From: Bacteroidota bacterium
GTDB taxonomy: Bacteria; Bacteroidota; Bacteroidia; Chitinophagales; LD1
Length of the DNA: 64,000 nt
NCBI GenBank assembly: GCA_947475165.1
Contig: CANJLD010000010.1
Location: 62,001-126,000 of the forward strand
Direction of reading: 5' to 3'
Each line of letters begins with the position of its first letter. The stretch's first letter is position 1. Shown here piece by piece: positions 42,488 to 51,733 of this stretch. The notes under the pieces were generated by a model. The model was not told where the DNA came from. It searched no databases and saw nothing but the letters and a program-made list of their open reading frames with translations. Made by a program: the position numbers and the translations under genes.

Positions 42488-42991
42488 TCATTTTAAATAT
42501 GAAATGATTCCCGTATTATCAGGTGTTATCACAATCTTTTTTCCATTCTTTAAAGTAATAAGAATGTGATTTTTATCTTGTGTACCGTACAAAACAAAAT
42601 TACCTAAAAGAGGTGATCTAAATTTTCCCCAATAACCAAATAAACCCCCACTACCTAAAGTCCTTACGGCTCCCTTAAGTTGTTCATTTTGTAACACTTC
42701 GATTGAAGATATTTCTCCCTTTTTAAATTCCTTTTTATAAAAAGGACCCAATATTTTCAGACTGTCATTATCTACTTCATATCTTGAAACACTAAAACCG
42801 TAGGCACATATACTTGCTACCAAAAGGAAGATACTTAAAAAGAAAAGTAAAGATAAAGTCCAAAAACTATTTCCCAATTTGTAGTATACGAATATTTTTC
42901 TGCCCAAAATAGCTAAGGACAGAATTATTACTGCTAGGCAAAAAACAGTAGTAAGTTGTGTTTGTAAATCAAATGAAGCCTTAAAATTCAT
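42488..42991 (-). CDS. Small membrane protein with PH-like C-terminal domain
   Basis: A 167-residue protein with two helices (about 12-30 and 43-65), then a beta-rich domain (about 70-165) containing FKKGEISSIEVLQN and GKKIVITPDNTGIISYL, similar to bacterial PH-type domains. Function unknown. Copy A of the island palindrome lies 30 bp upstream of its start. The gene contains no ACCGGT site, unlike most genes here, and about 200 bp of nondescript sequence separates it from the M20 gene. Confidence 0.7.
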   Translation of the reverse strand: MNFKASFDLQTQLTTVFCLAVIILSLAILGRKIFVYYKLGNSFWTLSLLFFLSIFLLVASICAYGFSVSRYEVDNDSLKILGPFYKKEFKKGEISSIEVLQNEQLKGAVRTLGSGGLFGYWGKFRSPLLGNFVLYGTQDKNHILITLKNGKKIVITPDNTGIISYLK

Positions 42992-43020
42992 GGTATTCTA
43001 TTATATTAAACATTACCCCT

Positions 43021-43048
43021 CGCAGAGTCTCCGTCTCGGGACTCTGCG
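43021..43048. repeat. REP palindrome copy A
   Basis: Arms cgcagagtc / gactctgcg with the 10-nt centre tccgtctcgg. The surrounding 46 nt (43011-43056) are identical to copy D. Confidence 0.9.
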
Positions 43049-43075
43049 TGATTGAACGGCAAACTATTCTGTTTT

Positions 43076-43660
43076 CTATACATTGGATAAATCTATATTA
43101 TTTAACTCGCCTACATGCATTACCTCATACGCTGTGTGTTTACCATCGTAGTAAAAGCCCGCAGAGCTATGCTCATAGGCTGACGGATGTTCAGCTAAAT
43201 TCCATTTACCGGTGCAGGGGTTGTTGTGTATGTATTGGAGTTTTGTGGTAAGCATACTATCGCTGATACATTCTTTACAATCGAAAGATGGTTGAAACAC
43301 CTGATGCAGTTTGCCGCGCTTTTTGTCGGTGTTGTTAACTCCGGCTTTTAGTTGATTGAGAATGCCGGTATTGTTTTGTTGAGTTAGCTGTTCAATAATG
43401 CCGTAAGCTAAAAACCGTTTTCCGTTTCCTACCCTGGTGTTGATGCTTTGTCCGGTGTTTCGGAATGCGATGACTGCATGAAGATGGTTGGGCATGATAA
43501 CATAACCTATGATGTGGTTTCCTTTTTCTTTAAGATAGTTGAACCATGTGTAAACGAGGTGGTAGCTGTTGGTGGTTTGGAACAGGGGCAACCAGTTATA
43601 GCAGGTGAGGGTGATGAAGTAAACGCCATTATTGAATGGTTGTTTGAAGCGGACTGTCAT
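43076..43660 (-). CDS. REP-associated tyrosine transposase (RAYT, Y1_Tnp family)
   Basis: A 194-residue protein starting MTVRFKQPFNNGVYFITLT. It carries the HUH metal motif His59-x-His61 (MPNHLHAVI) and a C-terminal catalytic-tyrosine helix LQYIHNNP (Tyr143), the signature of IS200/IS605-like RAYTs. Such enzymes nick single-stranded REP hairpins and spread or maintain REP/REPIN sequences. It is intact, flanked by palindromes A and B, and its start codon lies inside the duplicated right-end sequence. Three further copies of the palindrome lie within 2.3 kb, so it is the likely source of the family. Confidence 0.92.
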   Translation of the reverse strand: MTVRFKQPFNNGVYFITLTCYNWLPLFQTTNSYHLVYTWFNYLKEKGNHIIGYVIMPNHLHAVIAFRNTGQSINTRVGNGKRFLAYGIIEQLTQQNNTGILNQLKAGVNNTDKKRGKLHQVFQPSFDCKECISDSMLTTKLQYIHNNPCTGKWNLAEHPSAYEHSSAGFYYDGKHTAYEVMHVGELNNIDLSNV

Positions 43661-43734
43661 GTGGGTTAAATGTAAAAATTTTTGTGGTGGGTTGGTCGTT
43701 CAGTCTCGCAGAGTCCCGAGGCGGAGACTCTGCG
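43658..43734. repeat. Right-end repeat with REP palindrome copy B
   Basis: The palindrome is at 43707-43734 (arms cgcagagtc / gactctgcg, centre ccgaggcgga, inverted relative to copy A). The first 67 bp, beginning at the RAYT start codon, match 45929-45995 with one difference, so the two genes share start codon, leader and probably promoter. Confidence 0.88.
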
Positions 43735-43783
43735 GAGGGGGAAAATCTGTTCCTTTGTTATCTTTCGTTCATTATATCACTAC

Positions 43784-44212
43784 ATGGCTAAGTTTTATTT
43801 ACTCTTTTTTTTAGTCTTACCTTCTTTTCTTTTGTTTTCACAGCAAGAAAAAACATTTCATGTTCAAAAGAGACCGAGTGTAAAAATTGCAGAGAAGGAA
43901 TTTCATCGTACATTTTTTATTTCTCTGAATAACTTTCTGTTAGATACAGGTATATCCGTTGGCGATACAATCAGAATGAAAGGCCAACGATTCCCTTTAG
44001 GAAAATGCACTTTCACTATTAGTAATAAAGGAGAAATTTTTAAAGCGGAAATGTTACAAGGCGTAGTTACACCCGCGCTTTTGATAGTCCTTAAACAAAA
44101 GCTATTCAAAAGCCCCACTGCAATTTGCTTTGCAGAAATACAAGAAGTAAAAACTACAAAAGGAGTGGTAGTAAGCAAAGGTGGGCAGGCTATTGTCAAA
44201 TTGCTGTTTTGA
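43784..44212 (+). CDS. Small exported protein of unknown function
   Basis: A 142-residue protein, started at the ATG at 43784, which gives a clean signal peptide (MAKFYLLFFLVLPSFLLFSQ). The frame is open upstream through palindrome B, but that extension has no signal-like start. The mature part is a mixed alpha/beta domain with one Cys pair (KCTFT, ICFAE) and no motif I recognise. It lies between palindromes B and C and has no ACCGGT site. Confidence 0.68.
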   Translation: MAKFYLLFFLVLPSFLLFSQQEKTFHVQKRPSVKIAEKEFHRTFFISLNNFLLDTGISVGDTIRMKGQRFPLGKCTFTISNKGEIFKAEMLQGVVTPALLIVLKQKLFKSPTAICFAEIQEVKTTKGVVVSKGGQAIVKLLF

Positions 44213-44243
44213 CCTCAACGACAGGAGAGATATCCTTACCCCT

Positions 44244-44270
44244 CGCAGAGTCCCGCCTCGGGACTCTGCG
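44244..44270. repeat. REP palindrome copy C
   Basis: Arms cgcagagtc / gactctgcg with a 9-nt centre ccgcctcgg. The arms extend outward to cccct / gagggg. An A run follows at once. Confidence 0.88.
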
Positions 44271-44311
44271 GAGGGGAAAAAAAATTTACCTTCGAAATAC
44301 AAACCTTTTTT

Positions 44312-45100
44312 ATGAAAGCTGTCTGCACTTTGTTGTTTGCATTTTTCGCGCTAAGTTCTTTTGCTTCTGATAGTATTCCAAAGCCGTTTAAATGGGGGTT
44401 TAAGTTTAATTACGAGGCAGTGCGCTCGGTGCCCCGCTACTTATATATAGAGGACAAAAAGAAAGCAGCGGAATTCAATTTCACTTTTCTGAATATTGGT
44501 TGGGGGTTTCAGATATATGAGAAGAAGCAAAGAAACTATCATGAGATTTCCTTATCGCGAATCTGGTACTCGAATAACCGAGAGGGATACCGGAGTGTGC
44601 GAATTAATGCCTTAGATTCTTCACGGATGTACAGAAACAATGAAAATTTTCAGATAGGATTAAGATACAGCTATTACCTGCAAACAAGCAGCAGAAAAAA
44701 AGAGAAAAGGCACAAGTTCTTTCTCGAATTTCCTTTCGAAATTTTTTACCATAAAAATACTGCGGGCTGGTACCATGATTTTGATACGCTGAATAATTAC
44801 AAACCAAGCGAGGCTTACGAGAGCGATGTGGTTGGTTTTAGTTTTGGCATAACACCTCATTACCATTATTTTATTACCAATCAGGTATACCTTGACGTTG
44901 CCATACCGGTGGCATACACCGGTATGTATTGCTTTACCCGCACTTACAGCGATGACGGAACACCCCTTGGTTTTGTAATGAATAAAAGTTCAGGCTACTT
45001 TAACGAGTTTGGAAATGTTATACCTTTCTCTCTTCGCCTTTCGCTGGGGGTAAAACTCTATACACCGCAAAAGAAGAAACCGTTAATGACTACTCAATAA
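44312..45100 (+). CDS. Exported beta-barrel-like protein of unknown function
   Basis: A 262-residue protein with a signal peptide (about 1-18, SFAS). The rest has alternating aromatic strands (FKWGFKFNY, EISLSRIWYSN, FQIGLRYSYYLQ, LRLSLGVKLY) typical of small outer-membrane barrels. Unlike its neighbours in the island it has two ACCGGT sites near the 3' third. It lies between palindromes C and D. Confidence 0.7.
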   Translation: MKAVCTLLFAFFALSSFASDSIPKPFKWGFKFNYEAVRSVPRYLYIEDKKKAAEFNFTFLNIGWGFQIYEKKQRNYHEISLSRIWYSNNREGYRSVRINALDSSRMYRNNENFQIGLRYSYYLQTSSRKKEKRHKFFLEFPFEIFYHKNTAGWYHDFDTLNNYKPSEAYESDVVGFSFGITPHYHYFITNQVYLDVAIPVAYTGMYCFTRTYSDDGTPLGFVMNKSSGYFNEFGNVIPFSLRLSLGVKLYTPQKKKPLMTTQ

Positions 45101-45132
45101 CCGGACTATGCTTGACAGAACACATTACCCCT

Positions 45133-45160
45133 CGCAGAGTCTCCGTCTCGGGACTCTGCG
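45133..45160. repeat. REP palindrome copy D
   Basis: Identical to copy A, including the flanking bases on both sides (46 nt in all). Confidence 0.9.
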
Positions 45161-45211
45161 TGATTGAATAGAGAAGCCAAACAAAATGCCCGCGAATGCG
45201 GGGCGTGGTGC

Positions 45212-45931
45212 TTACCTATCTGCAAAGAAACCTTGAAAAACACCATTTGTCACGTGAATGGAGTCATGAGGTGCATTCGTATTGAAGAGCTTACACTTGA
45301 AATTAAATTTTACCAATATTACTCTTGCCTCTGAATTTCTGATAATGTTATCTATGTACAGTTTCACCCAGTCAATCTCATGAGATGTTGCATTGTTGTA
45401 TTTTACTTCTGTTATCTCAAAATGATTAAATGTATCAAGATGAGCGGGCGTTGGTAAAACAAAACCAAATGAATTTTGAAAAACATATGGGTTGGTAGTT
45501 GTATTTAATATGATGTTAACCCCTTGTTTGTTTTGTAGGTGCTGTATCTCAAGTATTCCTGTTTTGAATGCGTCATAAAAATCAACCTCATTTTTGGGAA
45601 CCCATCCCCCTTCTATAGAATCCATTTGCGTTTTCAAGAAGTATTTTTGAAAACTTATTGCAACTAAGGGCTTGTTACTTTTATCCTGGAGAATACTATT
45701 GTAGTGCATTAACACACTATCTGACGATGGGTCTGACAGAGTTGCAATTGTTCTTCCTGGTATTAATTGAAAGTTTGAATTCCCCACTTTGTATTCAGCA
45801 TAACCAGTGTAGCTATCCGCTCCTGCATCATACTTCAATATGAATGCCGCTGCTGGAACAAAAACTGTTTTGCCGCAACCAAACTGAAGTAGAATAAAAA
45901 CTACTGCCAGTAATTTGAAGAGTGCTTTCAT
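45212..45931 (-). CDS. Lipoprotein of unknown function, passenger of the REP-bounded unit
   Basis: A 239-residue protein with a lipobox (LLQFGC, Cys19). The mature part is beta-rich with AAFILKYDAGADSYTGYAEY, FEITEVKYNN and a C-terminal FQGFFADR. I do not recognise it. Its start codon and 67 bp upstream are the same as those of the RAYT gene, so expression of both may follow the same promoter. It carries no ACCGGT site. Confidence 0.7.
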   Translation of the reverse strand: MKALFKLLAVVFILLQFGCGKTVFVPAAAFILKYDAGADSYTGYAEYKVGNSNFQLIPGRTIATLSDPSSDSVLMHYNSILQDKSNKPLVAISFQKYFLKTQMDSIEGGWVPKNEVDFYDAFKTGILEIQHLQNKQGVNIILNTTTNPYVFQNSFGFVLPTPAHLDTFNHFEITEVKYNNATSHEIDWVKLYIDNIIRNSEARVILVKFNFKCKLFNTNAPHDSIHVTNGVFQGFFADR

Positions 45932-46005
45932 GTGGGTTAAATGTAAAAATTTTTGTGGTGGGTTGGTCGTTCAGTCCCGCAGAGTCCCGAGGCGGTGACT
46001 CTGCG
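45929..46005. repeat. Right-end repeat with REP palindrome copy E
   Basis: The palindrome is at 45978-46005 (centre ccgaggcggt), followed by gggggcttttttata, so it may also work as a terminator in the + direction. The first 67 bp copy the RAYT leader. Confidence 0.85.
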
Positions 46006-46021
46006 GGGGGCTTTTTTATAA

Positions 46022-46711
46022 TTATCCCACCACCGGCCTCTGCGCCCACTTAAAAATAACCTTACCGGCAGTAAGCACTAATGCAGTGCTTAAGCCAACA
46101 GTGCCGGCAATCATTCTTCCCTTTCCGTTCCATACATCGGCATTGCCCATGTTTGGAGCCTGTGCCTGTGCAAAGCCCGAGAAAGTGCCCACAAAAGCAG
46201 CGGTATTCCAGTGTGGTATATTAGCATAGTTAATAGCCGCATTGCTGTTAATATAAGTAGCCCAGGCGCCCGGTGCGGCAACTACGGCTTTCCAGTAAGC
46301 ATCGCTTGCCTTGGCTAAACCAATAGCCCCGTAAATAGATGTTTTAGAAATAGTATTGATATCGCTTTGTGTTAGTTGCTCGGTGCAGGCATCAAAAAAA
46401 TCGCCCATGCTGTCAATGCTTTGTTCTTTAATACCGCAAAACACTGCATCTATCATAGCAGCTTCGCTGCCATCAAAATTAAGGTTCTGTGCATTTTTTG
46501 AATTTACATAATCGTTTACACTGTTGGCCATAGCAATGACAATAAACGGCAGTTCGTCCGGTGGCTCGGGTAAGGCAGCTAAATAAGCCTCTATAGTAGC
46601 GCTAAGGTCATCGTAAGTAGGGCTGCCGGGCAGGTTGGCTATAATATAGTCTAAGCCATCGGTAAATAAAGTATCGCCTTGTTTGTAAGGGTTTAAAACG
46701 GGAATTGCCAT
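46022..46711 (-). CDS. Protein of unknown function with C-terminal hydrophobic segment
   Basis: A 229-residue protein without a signal peptide. The N-terminal two thirds are helical (YDDLSATIEAYLAAL; DAVFCGIKEQSIDSMGDFFDACTEQLTQSD), then a Gly/Ala-rich stretch and one hydrophobic helix (MIAGTVGLSTALVLTAGKVIF) near the C-terminus. I do not recognise the family. Its upstream region is the 42-bp array at 46776. It carries no ACCGGT site. Confidence 0.65.
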   Translation of the reverse strand: MAIPVLNPYKQGDTLFTDGLDYIIANLPGSPTYDDLSATIEAYLAALPEPPDELPFIVIAMANSVNDYVNSKNAQNLNFDGSEAAMIDAVFCGIKEQSIDSMGDFFDACTEQLTQSDINTISKTSIYGAIGLAKASDAYWKAVVAAPGAWATYINSNAAINYANIPHWNTAAFVGTFSGFAQAQAPNMGNADVWNGKGRMIAGTVGLSTALVLTAGKVIFKWAQRPVVG

Positions 46712-46775
46712 GTGTTGAAATTTATAGGTTTAAAAATTTACTTCCTGCCGGTATTAACCGGTTTGCCGTTCGAAA

Positions 46776-47063
46776 ATTCACGGAATACATCGTGTAATTC
46801 CTGTTTTCATCTCAATCATTCCCGGAATACATGCTGTAATTCCTGTTTTCATCTCAGTCATTCCCGGAATACAGGCTGTAATTCCTGTTTTCATCTCAAT
46901 CATTCCCGGAATACACACTGTAATTCCTGTTTTCATCTCAATCATTCCCGGAATACATGCTGTAATTCCTGTTTTCATCTCAATCATTCCCGGAATACAT
47001 GCTGTAATTCCTGTTTTTAGTCAACTAATTCCCGGTTTAATTGCAGTAGAAACAGGAATACTT
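46776..47063. repeat. Second tandem array with a 42-bp period
   Basis: Units start at 46776, 46818, 46860, 46902, 46944 and 46986, with a degenerate seventh from 47028. Each has attcccggaatac, a variable 3-4-base centre, then tgtaattcc, so that ggaat-aca and tgt-attcc form an imperfect dyad around a variable core, followed by tgttttcatctcaatc. Frames on both strands stay open (for example a 14-residue MIEMKTGITACIPG repeat), but without start or family support. It fills most of the 360-bp gap between two minus-strand genes. Confidence 0.92.
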
Positions 47064-47071
47064 TCATTCAG

Positions 47072-47719
47072 TCAGGCTACTAATACTAATACTACCTGCG
47101 AGTAGGGCGGCACACCCGTATCTTTATTAGTAATTACCTGCTTGCGGCAGTAAATTTTAGTGCCGGGCACTGCACCGCTTACCCAGTTAACACTGCTGCG
47201 GGTAGATACCACAGCGGTGGTAAAATTGATGCCGTTGCTGCTGGTTTGAAAAATGTAAGAAGCAACTATCCCCTTATCGGCAGCCTTAGAGGTAAAGCGC
47301 AGCATACCTTGTGTATTAACTACATTAGTTACGGCAAAATCGGGCTTTACCCTAGCGTTAGTAGTTTTTACCCGCATTCCGCAGCCTTGAATAATCTGAC
47401 GCGATGCTTCTTCGTTTGCTGCACTATCTGAAGCTAACTGCACTTCGGCTTTAAGCATGTTAGCATCGTTTACTACTGCTGCCAGCGAAATGTCGCGCGT
47501 AGCAGCTGTGCCTTCGGCACGGGTGCCTGCTGCGGCTTCATCGGCAACTAAGGTGGCAATGCGCCCGTTAATAGCGGTAACCACACCCGCTGCAAGGGTA
47601 ATATAAGTGTTGCCCGGTGCGGTAGTCAGTTTAAGCATAAGTTCGTGCATATCGCTTATAAACTGAGGAACTTTGCGCGAAATGGCGAATACTGCAATAA
47701 TTCGTTTTTTGTAAGCCAT
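47072..47719 (-). CDS. Cytosolic or non-classically exported protein with Fn3-like C-terminus
   Basis: A 215-residue protein. The first 130 residues are helical and Ala-rich (LMLKLTTAPGN ... DISLAAVVNDANMLKAEVQLASDSAANEEA). The last 80 residues resemble one fibronectin type III-like beta-sandwich (ASYIFQTSSNGINFTTAVVS ... YCRKQVITNKDTG). No signal peptide and no known family. It is divergent from the XRE regulator, and its 5' region carries two direct repeats that could be operators. It carries no ACCGGT site. Confidence 0.65.
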   Translation of the reverse strand: MAYKKRIIAVFAISRKVPQFISDMHELMLKLTTAPGNTYITLAAGVVTAINGRIATLVADEAAAGTRAEGTAATRDISLAAVVNDANMLKAEVQLASDSAANEEASRQIIQGCGMRVKTTNARVKPDFAVTNVVNTQGMLRFTSKAADKGIVASYIFQTSSNGINFTTAVVSTRSSVNWVSGAVPGTKIYCRKQVITNKDTGVPPYSQVVLVLVA

Positions 47720-47790
47720 GATGTTTTGTTTTTAGGTGATGAAATAATGAGGGCAAACATACAGGCGCAGGCAGACCTCTGAAAGTTTTT

Positions 47791-47835
47791 ACGGTTGTGC
47801 CGTGAAACCAAAACGGTTGTTTCGTGAAACCGTTT
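47791..47835. promoter_or_regulatory. Direct repeats upstream of the Fn3-like gene, possible operators
   Basis: Two copies of ACGGTTGTKYCGTGAAACC start at 47791 and 47813, 22 bp apart. The second also forms a palindrome AAACGGTT / AACCGTTT (47811-47818 and 47828-47835). Confidence 0.55.
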
Positions 47836-47948
47836 TTGGAACATTTTGGGAACCTGACTAAGAAAGGCTTAAAACAGGCGTTTTACCAATGTCACAGAAT
47901 TGTCATTTTTTTAAGAAAACCCGAATATTTTCCTTTTCTATTATAAAA

Positions 47949-47993
47949 TTTACAACCACAATCAGCGTTTTTACAACCAAACAGGTTGTAAAA
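47949..47993. promoter_or_regulatory. Palindromic candidate operator in front of the XRE regulator
   Basis: A perfect inverted repeat TTTTACAACC-aaaca-GGTTGTAAAA (47969-47993), with another TTTACAACC half-site at 47949-47957, 21 bp (two helical turns) from the first. It ends 40 bp before the regulator ATG, a typical autoregulatory position. Confidence 0.65.
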
Positions 47994-48033
47994 CCCGGAA
48001 CCATTATTTATAAAACCCCCTAAATAACCGGTT

Positions 48034-48384
48034 ATGTATGCAAACGAAAACCTTCGCAATTGGCGTTTAACCCGAGGCTATAAACAATATTATATGGGCA
48101 AGCAGGTAGGCATAACCGCACAGGCTTACGGCAAAATAGAACGGGCAGAAAGCCAGCTTACCAAAGAGGCAGCCATTAAATTTGCCCTCGCGCTTGATAT
48201 ACCTTTAGAGGAAATTTATATTGGCGAAGGCAGTGTTGCTAAAGAAAAAACCCTGACCCCAAAAGAGGCAGAGCTTTACGAAAAACTAATGCAGGAAAAA
48301 GACGAACGGATAAAAGATAAAGACAAAGTAATTGCCTTACAGGAAATTATAATACAGGAAAGAGAGAAGAAGAAAAAGAGGTAA
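48034..48384 (+). CDS. XRE-family HTH regulator with C-terminal coiled coil
   Basis: A 116-residue protein. The helix-turn-helix is at about 4-60 (RNWRLTRGYKQYYMGKQVGITAQAYGKIERAESQL), then a loop IPLEEIYIGEG, and a charged helix to the end (EAELYEKLMQEKDERIKDKDKV) suited to dimerisation. The palindrome just upstream suggests it regulates itself, and it may also act on the divergent Fn3-like gene at 47719. Such solitary XRE proteins are common in accessory islands. Confidence 0.88.
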   Translation: MYANENLRNWRLTRGYKQYYMGKQVGITAQAYGKIERAESQLTKEAAIKFALALDIPLEEIYIGEGSVAKEKTLTPKEAELYEKLMQEKDERIKDKDKVIALQEIIIQEREKKKKR

Positions 48385-48390
48385 CTGCTT

Positions 48391-49134
48391 TTACTTTACC
48401 ATGCTAAGCATAAACACATAATCATGACTTACGTATTTTTGGCCTTCGCGCTCAAAATTTACCTGGCTGGCAATATTATGCAGACGGGCAGAACCGGTGG
48501 CGTAGCGGCAGCCGCCTTCTTTCATGGCGCGCTGCAGGTAGCGGGCTATATTGGTAAACAAATGTTTTTGCCGGTGTTGCGGAAGTAAACCTATATAAGG
48601 AGTGTAAGAGTTTTCGCCTTTAAATTCGGTAGCCGCACAGCCTATAAATGCTCCGTTTAGTTTTATGAGCCAACCGCGTTTGGCGGGGTTGCCCTGCCCA
48701 AAATAATTAGTGGCAATGTGGTTGGCAAAATTTTCTATCTGCAATTCTATTGGAAAATATTTCTCCAGCATTTCGTTTCTGAAAAACCCCATCGGCACTT
48801 CGGTGTAACTGTCTTTTACCAGCTGTTTCATTTGCTCCTGCTGCCTGCCATTGCAGGGTATAAATTCCATTTCGGGAAGTTCTAAAGGCGGCACTTCGTA
48901 TGTATGTAAATCGAGATTGTATAACCGGTGAATATCGAGCAGGTGAAAAGGAAAGCCTATGCGGTTTAGTAAAACAAAAAGGTCGTCACCGGGGTTCAGA
49001 ATTTTTAAGCGGACAAAATCAAATTGCTCTTCTATAATTTGCTGGCGAAGTACTTCCGGGTTTTGCAATACCCCTTCGTACCGCCCGAACTTTATGTGGA
49101 AGAGTTTGCTTTCGTTTTCAGAATGAATAATCAT
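48391..49134 (-). CDS. GNAT-family N-acetyltransferase
   Basis: A 247-residue protein with a C-terminal GNAT domain: GAFIGCAATEF (strand 4), the acetyl-CoA loop GLLPQHRQKHLFTNIARYL (about 187-205), and a final strand near NFEREGQKYV. The N-terminal 110 residues resemble the extra domain of WecD/dTDP-fucosamine acetyltransferases, so a nucleotide-sugar or amino-sugar acceptor is possible. It is convergent with the XRE gene (6 bp between stops). Confidence 0.82.
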   Translation of the reverse strand: MIIHSENESKLFHIKFGRYEGVLQNPEVLRQQIIEEQFDFVRLKILNPGDDLFVLLNRIGFPFHLLDIHRLYNLDLHTYEVPPLELPEMEFIPCNGRQQEQMKQLVKDSYTEVPMGFFRNEMLEKYFPIELQIENFANHIATNYFGQGNPAKRGWLIKLNGAFIGCAATEFKGENSYTPYIGLLPQHRQKHLFTNIARYLQRAMKEGGCRYATGSARLHNIASQVNFEREGQKYVSHDYVFMLSMVK

Positions 49135-49194
49135 CAGCCACTAATTACACGAATTAAATACAAATTGAAATTACCTTAACTCCGAAAGGCTTTT

Positions 49195-49283
49195 TGTCAT
49201 TCCGAACGTAGGCTTTGCGAAGTGAGGAATCTTGTATTTCATTGGTAAACAAAATACAAGATACCTCGTTCCTCGGTATGACA
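49195..49283. repeat. REPIN-like inverted repeat between dapF and the GNAT gene
   Basis: Long imperfect inverted repeat: tgtcattccgaac ... gaggaatcttgtattt on the left and its complement (aaatacaagatacctcg ... tatgaca) on the right, with a short loop near 49242. Confidence 0.75.
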
Positions 49284-49336
49284 AAGCGCTTTTTTGCTGT
49301 CTTCCGAATAACTCTGGTTCAAACCCTTTCGGGGTT

Positions 49337-50116
49337 TTATATCTCCACCGTTCCTTCAAAAACCTTTTCAGCCGGACCCACCAGGTAAATATTCCGGTAG
49401 CCTCTGCCTGACGGCTCAAATTTTATCAGCAATTTACCACCGGGGGTTTCAATGTTCACTTCGTTCATCAGCGTTCCGCTTTTTGAAGCCAAAGCCAGCG
49501 CACTTGCCACCACACCGGTGCCGCAGCTTAGTGTTTCGCCCTCTACTCCTCTTTCGTAGGTGCGCACAAACAATTCGTTACTGCTTTTCTTTTCTGCAAA
49601 ATTTACGTTGATGCCTTCGGCAGCAAATCTCTCCGAGTAACGAATTTTCTGCGCCTCCTCTACTACTTTCAAATTACTTACTCCGTTTACAAACTGAACA
49701 TAATGTGGCGAACCGGTGTTCAGCACATAATCGCTGTTATAGTTTTCTATCGCCTCCACATCTTTCATTTTAAGCGATACAACGCCATTGCTCAAAATTT
49801 CGCCTTCGTGCTCGCCATCTATTGCCGTAAATTTACAACGGGCAGAAATTAAACCCAAATCATGCGCAAATTGAATCAGACATCTTCCACCATTTCCGCA
49901 CATCGAGCTTTCGTTTCCATCGCTGTTGAAATACACCATCTCAAAATCATAACCCGCTTTGTTTTGCAGGTAAATAAGTCCATCGCCCCCAATACCAAAT
50001 CTGCGGTTACACAATTTTTCGATGGTGGCGCGTTCATTAGTTAAACCGGAGGTGCGATTGTCAATCATCACAAAATCGTTTCCGGTGCCCTGGTATTTAT
50101 AGAATTTAACGAGCAT
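49337..50116 (-). CDS. dapF: Diaminopimelate epimerase
   Basis: A 259-residue enzyme that converts LL- to meso-diaminopimelate for lysine and peptidoglycan synthesis. The catalytic cysteines are Cys73 (SMCGNGGRC) and Cys198 (LSCGTGVVA). The N-terminal signature YQGTGNDFVMID and FGIGGDGLIYL are also present. It is divergent from htrA. A ccctttcggggtttt sequence at its 3' end may help termination. Confidence 0.96.
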   Translation of the reverse strand: MLVKFYKYQGTGNDFVMIDNRTSGLTNERATIEKLCNRRFGIGGDGLIYLQNKAGYDFEMVYFNSDGNESSMCGNGGRCLIQFAHDLGLISARCKFTAIDGEHEGEILSNGVVSLKMKDVEAIENYNSDYVLNTGSPHYVQFVNGVSNLKVVEEAQKIRYSERFAAEGINVNFAEKKSSNELFVRTYERGVEGETLSCGTGVVASALALASKSGTLMNEVNIETPGGKLLIKFEPSGRGYRNIYLVGPAEKVFEGTVEI

Positions 50117-50157
50117 TAAGTATAAGTGTTAAAACGTTTTAATTCAAGTAACTTTAG

Positions 50158-50190
50158 CTTGCAAAATTCATTGAATAGGAAATAAATTTG
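50158..50190 (+). promoter_or_regulatory. Candidate htrA promoter
   Basis: CTTG at 50158-50161, 21 nt, then TAAATTTG at 50183-50190 (perfect TAnnTTTG). This would give a leader of about 40-45 nt before the ATG. Confidence 0.5.
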
Positions 50191-50239
50191 TGCTGCAATC
50201 GTTTTCAAGTTCAAAGCATAAAAATAAAAATCAAAAAAT

Positions 50240-51733
50240 ATGAGTATCAGAAAAATCGGATTCACCGCCTTTGTTGCCTTCGTAAGCGCCTTTGCCGCTG
50301 TAGCAACATTCAATTATTTCGGCTTTAACAAGCAACAGGTTTCTATAGTTGAAGGAACTCCTGCAAAGTTTGCCGCCTATGAAAAAAGCAACACTTCGCA
50401 GCCTATCGATTTTCGGTATGCGGCCGCTACATCTACACCGAGTGTAGTGCATATCAAATCTACCTTTAAAGCCGAAAGAGTAACTTCTAATGGTTACCAA
50501 GACCCTTTTCAGGATTTGTTTGGCAACGATTTCTATAAATATTTTCATGGACAAAATCCATATAAACCACAAGCTCAGGTAGCCACCGGTTCCGGTGTAA
50601 TTGTTTCTAAAGACGGGTATATAGTAACCAACAATCACGTAGTAGAAAATGCCGATGAGGTAGAGGTGATGATGAGCAATAACAAAAGTTATAAAGCAAA
50701 AATTATAGGCCGCGATGCCGATACCGATTTGGCTCTCGTAAAAATAGAAGCCAGCGAACTACCGGCTATTGATTTTGCCAATTCAGATTCTGTGTTGATT
50801 GGCGAATGGGTAATGGCAGTGGGTAATCCTTTTAATTTGGAATCAACAGTTACAGCAGGTATTGTAAGTGCCAAAAGCAGAAACATAAATCTGTTAGGTA
50901 ATCAGGAACAGAAACAAAACAACACTGCTATCGAATCGTTTATTCAAACAGATGCTGCTGTGAATCCCGGCAACAGCGGTGGAGCTTTAGTAAATGTAAA
51001 TGGTGAGCTAGTGGGTATCAATACCGCTATTGCTTCGCCTACCGGTACGTATGCCGGTTATTCGTTTGCGGTTCCATCAAACATTGTAAAGAAGGTAATT
51101 TTCGATTTAAAGAAATTCGGAATAAGTCAGCGCGGATTTTTGGGTGTATCTATCCGCACTATGGATGATAAAACCGCTAAAGAAGTCGGCTTCGATAAAC
51201 CTTACGGGGTGTATGTAGATGGAGTGAACAAAGGCTCTGCTGCCGAAGAATCGGGCTTAAGAAATAAAGATGTGATTACTAAAATTAACGGTGTAAAGGT
51301 AAACTCATCACCGGAGTTGCAGGAGCAGGTTGCGCGCTATAGCCCCGGTGATAAATTAGAGGTAGAAGTTATACGCGATGGAAAAACTTCCTCAATCAAT
51401 GTAACGCTCAAGAACAAATACAACACCGTAGCACAAATTGATAACACCAAAGATATTCTGAACGTATTGGGCATAAAGGTTGAAAATCTTTCTGCCGGAG
51501 AATTAAGAAACTTAGGTGTGCAGGGTGGAGTAAAAGTAACTGACCTTCAAAACGGAAAGCTTTTAGAGTTTACCGATATTAAAAAGGGATTTGTAATAAC
51601 CCAGATTGACGACCAACCGGTAAACAATGTAGACGACTTTGTAAATATGCTGAAAGAGAAAAATGGGAAAGTGTTGATAGAAGGAATTTATCCGAACAAG
51701 CCAATGAGTTACTTGTATGCGTTTAGGATGTAA
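50240..51733 (+). CDS. Deg/HtrA periplasmic serine protease
   Basis: A 497-residue protein with an N-terminal membrane/signal segment (about 5-29). The trypsin-like domain has His133 (NNHVV), Asp163 (ADTDLAL) and Ser246 (GNSGG). Two PDZ domains follow (about 285-385 and 400-497). These proteases degrade misfolded envelope proteins. The second PDZ is more divergent. The gene is divergent from dapF with its own promoter-like box and is followed by a very long hairpin. Confidence 0.93.
   Translation: MSIRKIGFTAFVAFVSAFAAVATFNYFGFNKQQVSIVEGTPAKFAAYEKSNTSQPIDFRYAAATSTPSVVHIKSTFKAERVTSNGYQDPFQDLFGNDFYKYFHGQNPYKPQAQVATGSGVIVSKDGYIVTNNHVVENADEVEVMMSNNKSYKAKIIGRDADTDLALVKIEASELPAIDFANSDSVLIGEWVMAVGNPFNLESTVTAGIVSAKSRNINLLGNQEQKQNNTAIESFIQTDAAVNPGNSGGALVNVNGELVGINTAIASPTGTYAGYSFAVPSNIVKKVIFDLKKFGISQRGFLGVSIRTMDDKTAKEVGFDKPYGVYVDGVNKGSAAEESGLRNKDVITKINGVKVNSSPELQEQVARYSPGDKLEVEVIRDGKTSSINVTLKNKYNTVAQIDNTKDILNVLGIKVENLSAGELRNLGVQGGVKVTDLQNGKLLEFTDIKKGFVITQIDDQPVNNVDDFVNMLKEKNGKVLIEGIYPNKPMSYLYAFRM

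Follow-up and report, generated by a model that had tools for sequence, protein, structure and literature searches.

How does a putative lipoprotein gene come to stand between the ends of a transposase gene? The question is raised by 3 kb of a 64,000-nucleotide stretch of a Bacteroidota genome (GCA_947475165.1, contig CANJLD010000010.1, positions 62,001 to 126,000; hereafter the window), where the gene for a REP-associated tyrosine transposase (RAYT), framed by repetitive extragenic palindromes (REPs), lies close to a lipoprotein gene with the same two ends. The answer we favor, at a little better than an even chance, is that the lipoprotein gene sits in a version of the neighboring RAYT unit that lacks a transposase, and that it has been joined to a captured promoter and start codon.

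The resemblance between the two units is close. Their left ends are identical over 47 of 47 bp (43010-43056 and 45122-45168), and their 83-bp right ends (43657-43739 and 45928-46010) differ at three positions, 43706/45977, 43725/45996, and 43736/46007, leaving 80 matches. Each end holds one hairpin palindrome, oriented oppositely on the left and right, and the leader part of the right ends forms a 49-bp run without mismatch that ends at the start codon, the RAYT and lipoprotein open reading frames (ORFs) using the same ATG. An earlier note made from the letters alone had described these features, and its observations held: the identical left ends, the single right-end difference within 45929-45995, the one oppositely oriented palindrome per end, and the RAYT start codon and leader on the lipoprotein gene. 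With an exact 47-bp repeat expected by chance about 4e-22 times in the genome, a chance repeat was ruled out as the origin of the shared ends. Two inverted REPs around the lipoprotein gene are also an unlikely coincidence, because these 3 kb hold 5 of the 16 REP-like places that the end searches revealed in the genome.

The two ends differ in kind. The shared left end is little beyond one REP unit, consisting of 43013-43056 plus 3 bp (ACA) outside it, and the REP tail YGAGTGAA also follows other REPs in the genome (on contig C3 and at C10:133541). The shared right end is RAYT specific and takes in, besides the REP, about 45 bp of the RAYT leader. We searched all 45 contigs (3.88 Mb) by similarity to the two ends, so the census is a lower bound. 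The 83-bp right end had 16 matches, of which 3 were full length, at the RAYT genes on C10 and C6 and at the lipoprotein gene; 12 covered the REP side only, and the idea that the whole right end is a general REP feature was dismissed. Left ends that continue into inner RAYT sequence were seen at the two RAYTs and at a remnant of a RAYT on C12, and the 47-bp block alone occurs at the lipoprotein gene. The last right-end match, 26 nt on C15, is promoter-like and stands beside a different hairpin; there (L012, about 2898-2965) the hairpin has a similar loop and is followed by a leader-like TTTTACATTTAACGCAC stretch shortly before an ATG, which may be another REP beside a promoter.

Downstream of the ATG, identity between the two ORFs turns patchy, with 16 of 23 nt alike counted from the ATG. 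Among 305 other ORF starts (mechanical ORFs of at least 130 amino acids from loci of the same genome and its relatives), one reached 16, scoring 20, the same as the start of the second RAYT. The junction thus falls at the ATG itself or in the first few codons of the lipoprotein gene.

What the gene may have gained there is a promoter. A putative -7-like box, TACATTTA, lies 6 nt before the ATG in the RAYT leader and in the lipoprotein leader alike, and it is close to the Bacteroidota -7 element, TANNTTTG. A promoter-like box lies 2 to 9 nt before the start in 11 of 20 RAYT leaders, compared to 5 of 43 control ORFs of the window; three of the 20 leaders are copies within one genome (G094), and two of the original 22 leaders were dropped when the script found no start codon. 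The lipoprotein gene would accordingly be read from a captured RAYT promoter. From the 6-nt spacing we infer a nearly leaderless transcript, in which case the promoter and the start codon would move together, as a single module.

Whether such a unit could arise at all depends on what RAYT units do in this lineage. Although RAYT genes are described as single copy (PMC8049555), with tnpA_REP reported as single copy without evidence of mobility in the cited part of PMC8266576 (2021), whole units of this RAYT group are multicopy and have been copied to new places, contradicting for this lineage the single-copy picture that the earlier note had also drawn. The units on C10 and C6 are 90.6 to 90.7% identical (90.6% over 732 columns), with 150-bp flanks agreeing at 44.0 and 48.5%. 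The relative G094 has three: those on C36 and C4 are 97.2% identical over 760 bp, those on C4 and C32 98.6% over 653 bp, the C32 copy being close to a contig end, and the 150-bp left flanks agree at 43 to 45%. In another genome, G015, two contigs have the first 114 bp of the unit in common (to the end of one contig), and the upstream DNA is different. Deletion derivatives occur as well in G094, both with the RAYT lost and both ends kept: at C36:81133, unit positions 1-104 are joined directly to 680-734, and at C29:130690, positions 1-40 are followed by 18 nt and then 613-737. In the same coordinates, the lipoprotein-gene unit comprises 1-44 and 631-727 (92.8% over 97 nt on the right), with a foreign gene between. 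Whole multicopy units and internally deleted units make a unit with foreign contents plausible. Combining nearly identical RAYT units, internally deleted ones, and clusters of REPs in one genome (L138-L149), G094 would be a good system for studying RAYT mobility.

These observations suggest how the locus may have formed. The unit plan of this RAYT group is REP, putative promoter and start codon, RAYT, and REP, and whole units are copied to new places. A second unit, or its two ends, would have come to lie 2.1 to 2.3 kb from the RAYT gene; its RAYT ORF would have been lost, and the lipoprotein gene joined by way of the patchy identity, either right at the start codon or no more than about six codons from it, to be transcribed now from the captured RAYT promoter. 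Such a junction needs no special machinery: ATG is the start of most genes, the sequence ATGA is frequent, and joins would be retained only if the gene stayed expressed. Two histories could lead to this outcome: the gene may have taken the place of the RAYT in a second unit, or a unit lying upstream of the gene may have lost its RAYT by deletion between the two starts, with the REP behind the gene arriving separately.

The second history is also the core of an alternative in which a RAYT unit inserted just upstream of the lipoprotein gene and then lost both the RAYT and its left REP when the DNA between the ATGA sequences at the two starts was deleted, so that promoter and start codon were fused to the gene. 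The REP downstream of the gene would have come alone or by conversion from the nearby left REP. Its outcome overlaps with the one we prefer, and the order of events differs. Insertion just before genes does happen, since the RAYT unit on C10 stops 21 bp short of the following gene's ATG and the C6 unit (L009:2964-3694) overlaps the start of a Por_Secre_tail gene (L009:1436-3034); the junction at the start codon, with its 16 of 23 like nucleotides, fits as well. At C6, the longest frame of the Por_Secre_tail gene reads the REP into its N terminus, or else the gene has lost its own start. The presence of this gene beside the second RAYT, like the kind of RAYT, points to a member of the Bacteroidota. 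A locus in the relative G106 gives further weight to this alternative and also to the explanation we prefer. At C12:95043-98264 (L177/L182), a PEGA-like secreted gene (17.6 bits; cutoff, 20.8) lies between a solute-binding gene and the gene for a permease, with like-oriented RAYT 5' ends on either side of it. Upstream of the permease gene, and without a RAYT, stand a RAYT leader and its ATG, which lead into that gene by way of a short frame whose stop overlaps the permease start as judged by eye. The architecture is other than that of the lipoprotein-gene unit, but here too the leader of a RAYT has come to precede a host gene. What the deletion account must add is a second, independent event placing an identical and correctly oriented REP behind the gene, and on balance we consider it possible but not probable.

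Neither the right-end nor the left-end searches of the window's own genome, which the earlier note had proposed, brought to light a second gene between RAYT ends: full-length right ends stand at the two RAYTs and the lipoprotein gene. Searches with RAYT leaders extended to 14 genomes, using part of their leaders (G096 alone has nine RAYT-like matches), and in this partial search no second gene was seen in place of a RAYT. Fourteen leaders compared against 13 genomes gave 20 matches, 14 at the RAYTs of origin and 6 elsewhere. Two of the six are in G106 C12, the permease locus above; the others are a RAYT start at a contig end (G015), two broken RAYTs rejected as passengers (G096 C30:290 and C1:21288), and a 32-nt match that is probably due to chance (G106 C1:102860). 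One leader gave 12 matches in G094 without a passenger being seen, the 33-nt REP matches at L146, L147, and L149 not being inspected singly; a candidate at C36:38490 was rejected because the ORF behind it is REP repeats read as protein. One leader against four genomes of another genus gave 16 matches and likewise no passenger: 2, both of them at RAYTs, span all or nearly all of the leader, and 14 cover just the REP and were not inspected singly. Among 59 other genomes, 7 had a match to the RAYT leader at an E value of ≤0.001 in the best 15 candidates per genome, and none of these matches fell in the first 26 positions of the leader.

A different way to obtain identical ends is gene conversion, in which two ordinary REPs around the lipoprotein gene were overwritten by the nearby RAYT ends and the gene was never part of a unit. 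The distance, 2.1 to 2.3 kb, would suit conversion, and the left REP is identical to that of the RAYT even at bases that vary among other left REPs. On the right, however, the conversion tract would have to run 49 bp past the last REP mismatch and halt at the start codon, without known prior homology, and we judge this account to be very unlikely.

The boldest possibility is that the RAYT moved the whole unit, 45125-46010, to its present place, as happens with mobile insertion cassette (MIC) elements. This is a stronger form of the explanation we prefer and does not exclude it. Both ends are complete, so mobility of the gene-bearing unit is possible, and RAYT-unit copies with unrelated flanks exist in the lineage. 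IS200-type insertion is not known to leave a target duplication, which therefore cannot serve as a trace. The unit is present once in the genome, however, and its gene had no clear relative in 395 other genomes; we regard such movement as improbable. Of the mobilized passenger cassette proposed earlier, what stands is a non-RAYT gene between both RAYT ends; a second passenger in the genome, a clear relative of the gene, and a sign of movement did not appear. A local join, in which deletion or illegitimate recombination captured the promoter and a REP came on its own or through conversion, would account for this sequence as well. What the sequences show directly are the shared ends, the multicopy RAYT units, and the internally deleted units of a relative, whereas use of the promoter, the order of events, and any mobility of the gene-bearing unit are conclusions drawn from them.

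The lipoprotein gene itself says little of its origin. It is single copy in the genome, has no Pfam family and no credible NCBIfam family (one match, 15.2 bits against a cutoff of 389), and has no clear relative in overlapping sets of 59 and 395 other genomes of the order or in the plasmid collection. A match in G024 (30% over part of a 597-amino-acid frame; E value, 7e-5) was not accepted as a relative, and a fold predicted without an alignment (predicted local distance difference test score [pLDDT], 39.9) was not used. G+C content at third codon positions is 32.1% for this gene and 49.7% for the RAYT gene, and is still lower in the ORFs at 42488 and 43787. A neighboring M20 gene is present in 15 of 18 genomes of the genus, its own included, and none of the genes of 42488-51733 was found near it (E value, ≤1e-5) at the 14 other genus loci, six of which span less than 10 kb since the contig ends or begins there.

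Several observations weigh against the explanation that we prefer. Inside the gene unit, no remnant of RAYT coding sequence was found (best, 15 nt; E value, 0.21), so the former presence of a RAYT is read from the ends alone. The left end, taken alone, amounts to no more than a REP, which may have been acquired independently. The search for an empty site had no success; conservation upstream of the M20 gene is lacking at the 14 genus loci, and for this reason an empty site is not readable there. There were also no relatives of the lipoprotein gene that would show it without these ends, only one clear case of a foreign gene between RAYT ends is at hand, and the promoter box test counts RAYTs that are not independent.

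Coordinates of the features discussed are given in Table 1.

Table 1. Features of the RAYT unit, the lipoprotein-gene unit, and the DNA between them (window coordinates)
Feature	Position	Strand	Remark
Complete RAYT unit, REP to REP, 729 bp	43013..43741	-	Second copy on C6, same genome
Left REP of RAYT unit	43013..43056	+	
RAYT ORF, 194 amino acids	43076..43660	-	NHLH and YIHNNP motifs
RAYT start codon, leader, and putative promoter	43657..43705	-	-7-like box TACATTTA at 43667-43674
Right REP of RAYT unit	43699..43741	-	
Solo symmetric REP	44236..44278	+	Between ORFs 43787-44212 and 44312-45100
Lipoprotein-gene unit, REP to REP, 886 bp, without transposase	45125..46010	-	
Left REP of gene unit	45125..45168	+	Identical to left REP of RAYT unit
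Terminator-like hairpin 3' of lipoprotein gene	45189..45202	-	Weak: 2 sites in region versus shuffle mean of 3.0
Putative lipoprotein ORF, 239 amino acids, no known family	45212..45931	-	"Lipoprotein" judged by eye from N terminus
Start codon and leader of lipoprotein gene, identical to those of RAYT	45928..45976	-	Box TACATTTA at 45938-45945
Right REP of gene unit	45970..46010	-	

The solo REP between the two units resembles a left and a right end reduced to their outer halves, as though a unit had collapsed into a single hairpin. Farther on, upstream of ORF 46022-46711, lies a tandem array (46776-47017) with a 42-bp unit, 5.8 copies, and 95% matches.

The transposase to which these ends belong is, judged by its predicted fold, a genuine RAYT, although its family scores fall under the curated cutoffs (NF047646, 70.6 bits at an E value of 1.2e-19 against 80; Pfam Y1_Tnp, 16.9 bits against 23). 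The structure model (pLDDT, 92.2), searched against PDB chains, has as its best match 4er8_A, a RAYT-REP complex (E value, 6.3e-07), followed by ISDra2, IS200-type, and IS608 TnpA proteins. Residues H59, H61, and Y143 of the NHLH and YIHNNP motifs are invariant in 19 of 19 aligned sequences, and Y143 is the putative catalytic tyrosine as assigned by the YIHNNP motif. By eye, hairpins flank the RAYT gene on both sides at 20 of 22 loci, the 3' side at L119 and L132 lying beyond the contig end. The GT[AG]G tag is absent beside the REP, and the outer tag at the left ends is TTACCCC/GGGGTAA. RAYT-like matches at an E value of ≤1e-12, many of them distant, occur in 50 of 119 genomes, the window's own included; the plasmid collection gave two RAYT matches at 26 to 27% identity, and the contigs of named relatives gave one distant RAYT, in Flavisolibacter.

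In its motifs, as judged by eye, the protein resembles subclass 2.6 of Quentin, a Bacteroidetes group for which atypical hairpin structures are reported (PMC6006769), although the subclass table in the cited part of that work has a WQ motif where this protein seems to have FQ (HQVFQ). The RAYT unit corresponds to the REPtron or TIRtron, a RAYT (TnpA_REP) gene framed by inverted repeats, with which it has in common an HUH transposase with NHLH and YIHNNP motifs, non-GTAG hairpins, and further genomic copies (PMC6006769, PMC3733652, and PMC2817692, each as cited in part). It differs in that whole units are multicopy, two in this genome and three in G094. RAYTs are described in the cited portions of the literature as domesticated genes (PMC8266576, PMC8049555). 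Here, whole RAYT units, deletion derivatives, and one gene-bearing unit occur within a single bacterial order. One can now test whether RAYTs of this group still transpose actively and whether their ends are able to transport genes and supply them with a promoter.

No report of a gene between RAYT ends was found by title or abstract start among the papers listed in searches of the open-access PMC literature; some of these searches gave mostly unrelated matches, and absence is weak evidence. Like REP doublets forming hairpins (REPINs) and miniature inverted-repeat transposable elements (MITEs), the lipoprotein-gene unit has two inverted REPs without a transposase gene, as do the internally deleted units of G094; REPIN spacers, though, are short as described in the cited parts of PMC3116915 and PMC8049555, and REPINs are many, whereas this unit is single copy and has 886 bp with a 239-codon ORF.

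Mobile promoters are repeats that deliver a promoter to a gene. The category is named in PMC8049555. The lipoprotein gene may have received its promoter in a similar way, with the difference that the start codon would be delivered along with the promoter, both lying between two ends.

IS231 is a DDE-type insertion sequence. In MIC231, IS231 ends surround a nontransposase gene and are moved in trans (PMC3913671; see also PMC2266710), and such elements combine ends around an unrelated gene, the lack of a transposase, and a related transposase in the cell. Gene-bearing, transposase-less units are thus known for other insertion sequences, and calling this one a new kind of nonautonomous element, as had been suggested, was too strong. 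Two of these features, ends around a nontransposase gene and a related transposase in the cell, are found here, and the unit may be called MIC-like without being a proven member; in terms of its presumed behavior, no known kind comes closer than MIC elements. It differs in having the RAYT hairpins of an IS200-like HUH system instead of the inverted repeats of a DDE transposase, and in a gene that appears to use the leader and start codon of the transposase; it is known from sequence, while movement of MIC elements in trans is described (PMC3913671). With both ends kept, the RAYT could cut out and paste the unit in trans, as happens with MITEs and MIC elements. That an autonomous Bacteroidota RAYT also mobilizes a gene-bearing unit expressed from the promoter and start codon of the transposase strikes us as rather unlikely, but if true, it would provide the HUH-transposase counterpart of MIC elements, in which an end carrying promoter and ATG serves as a ready-made expression site for captured genes.

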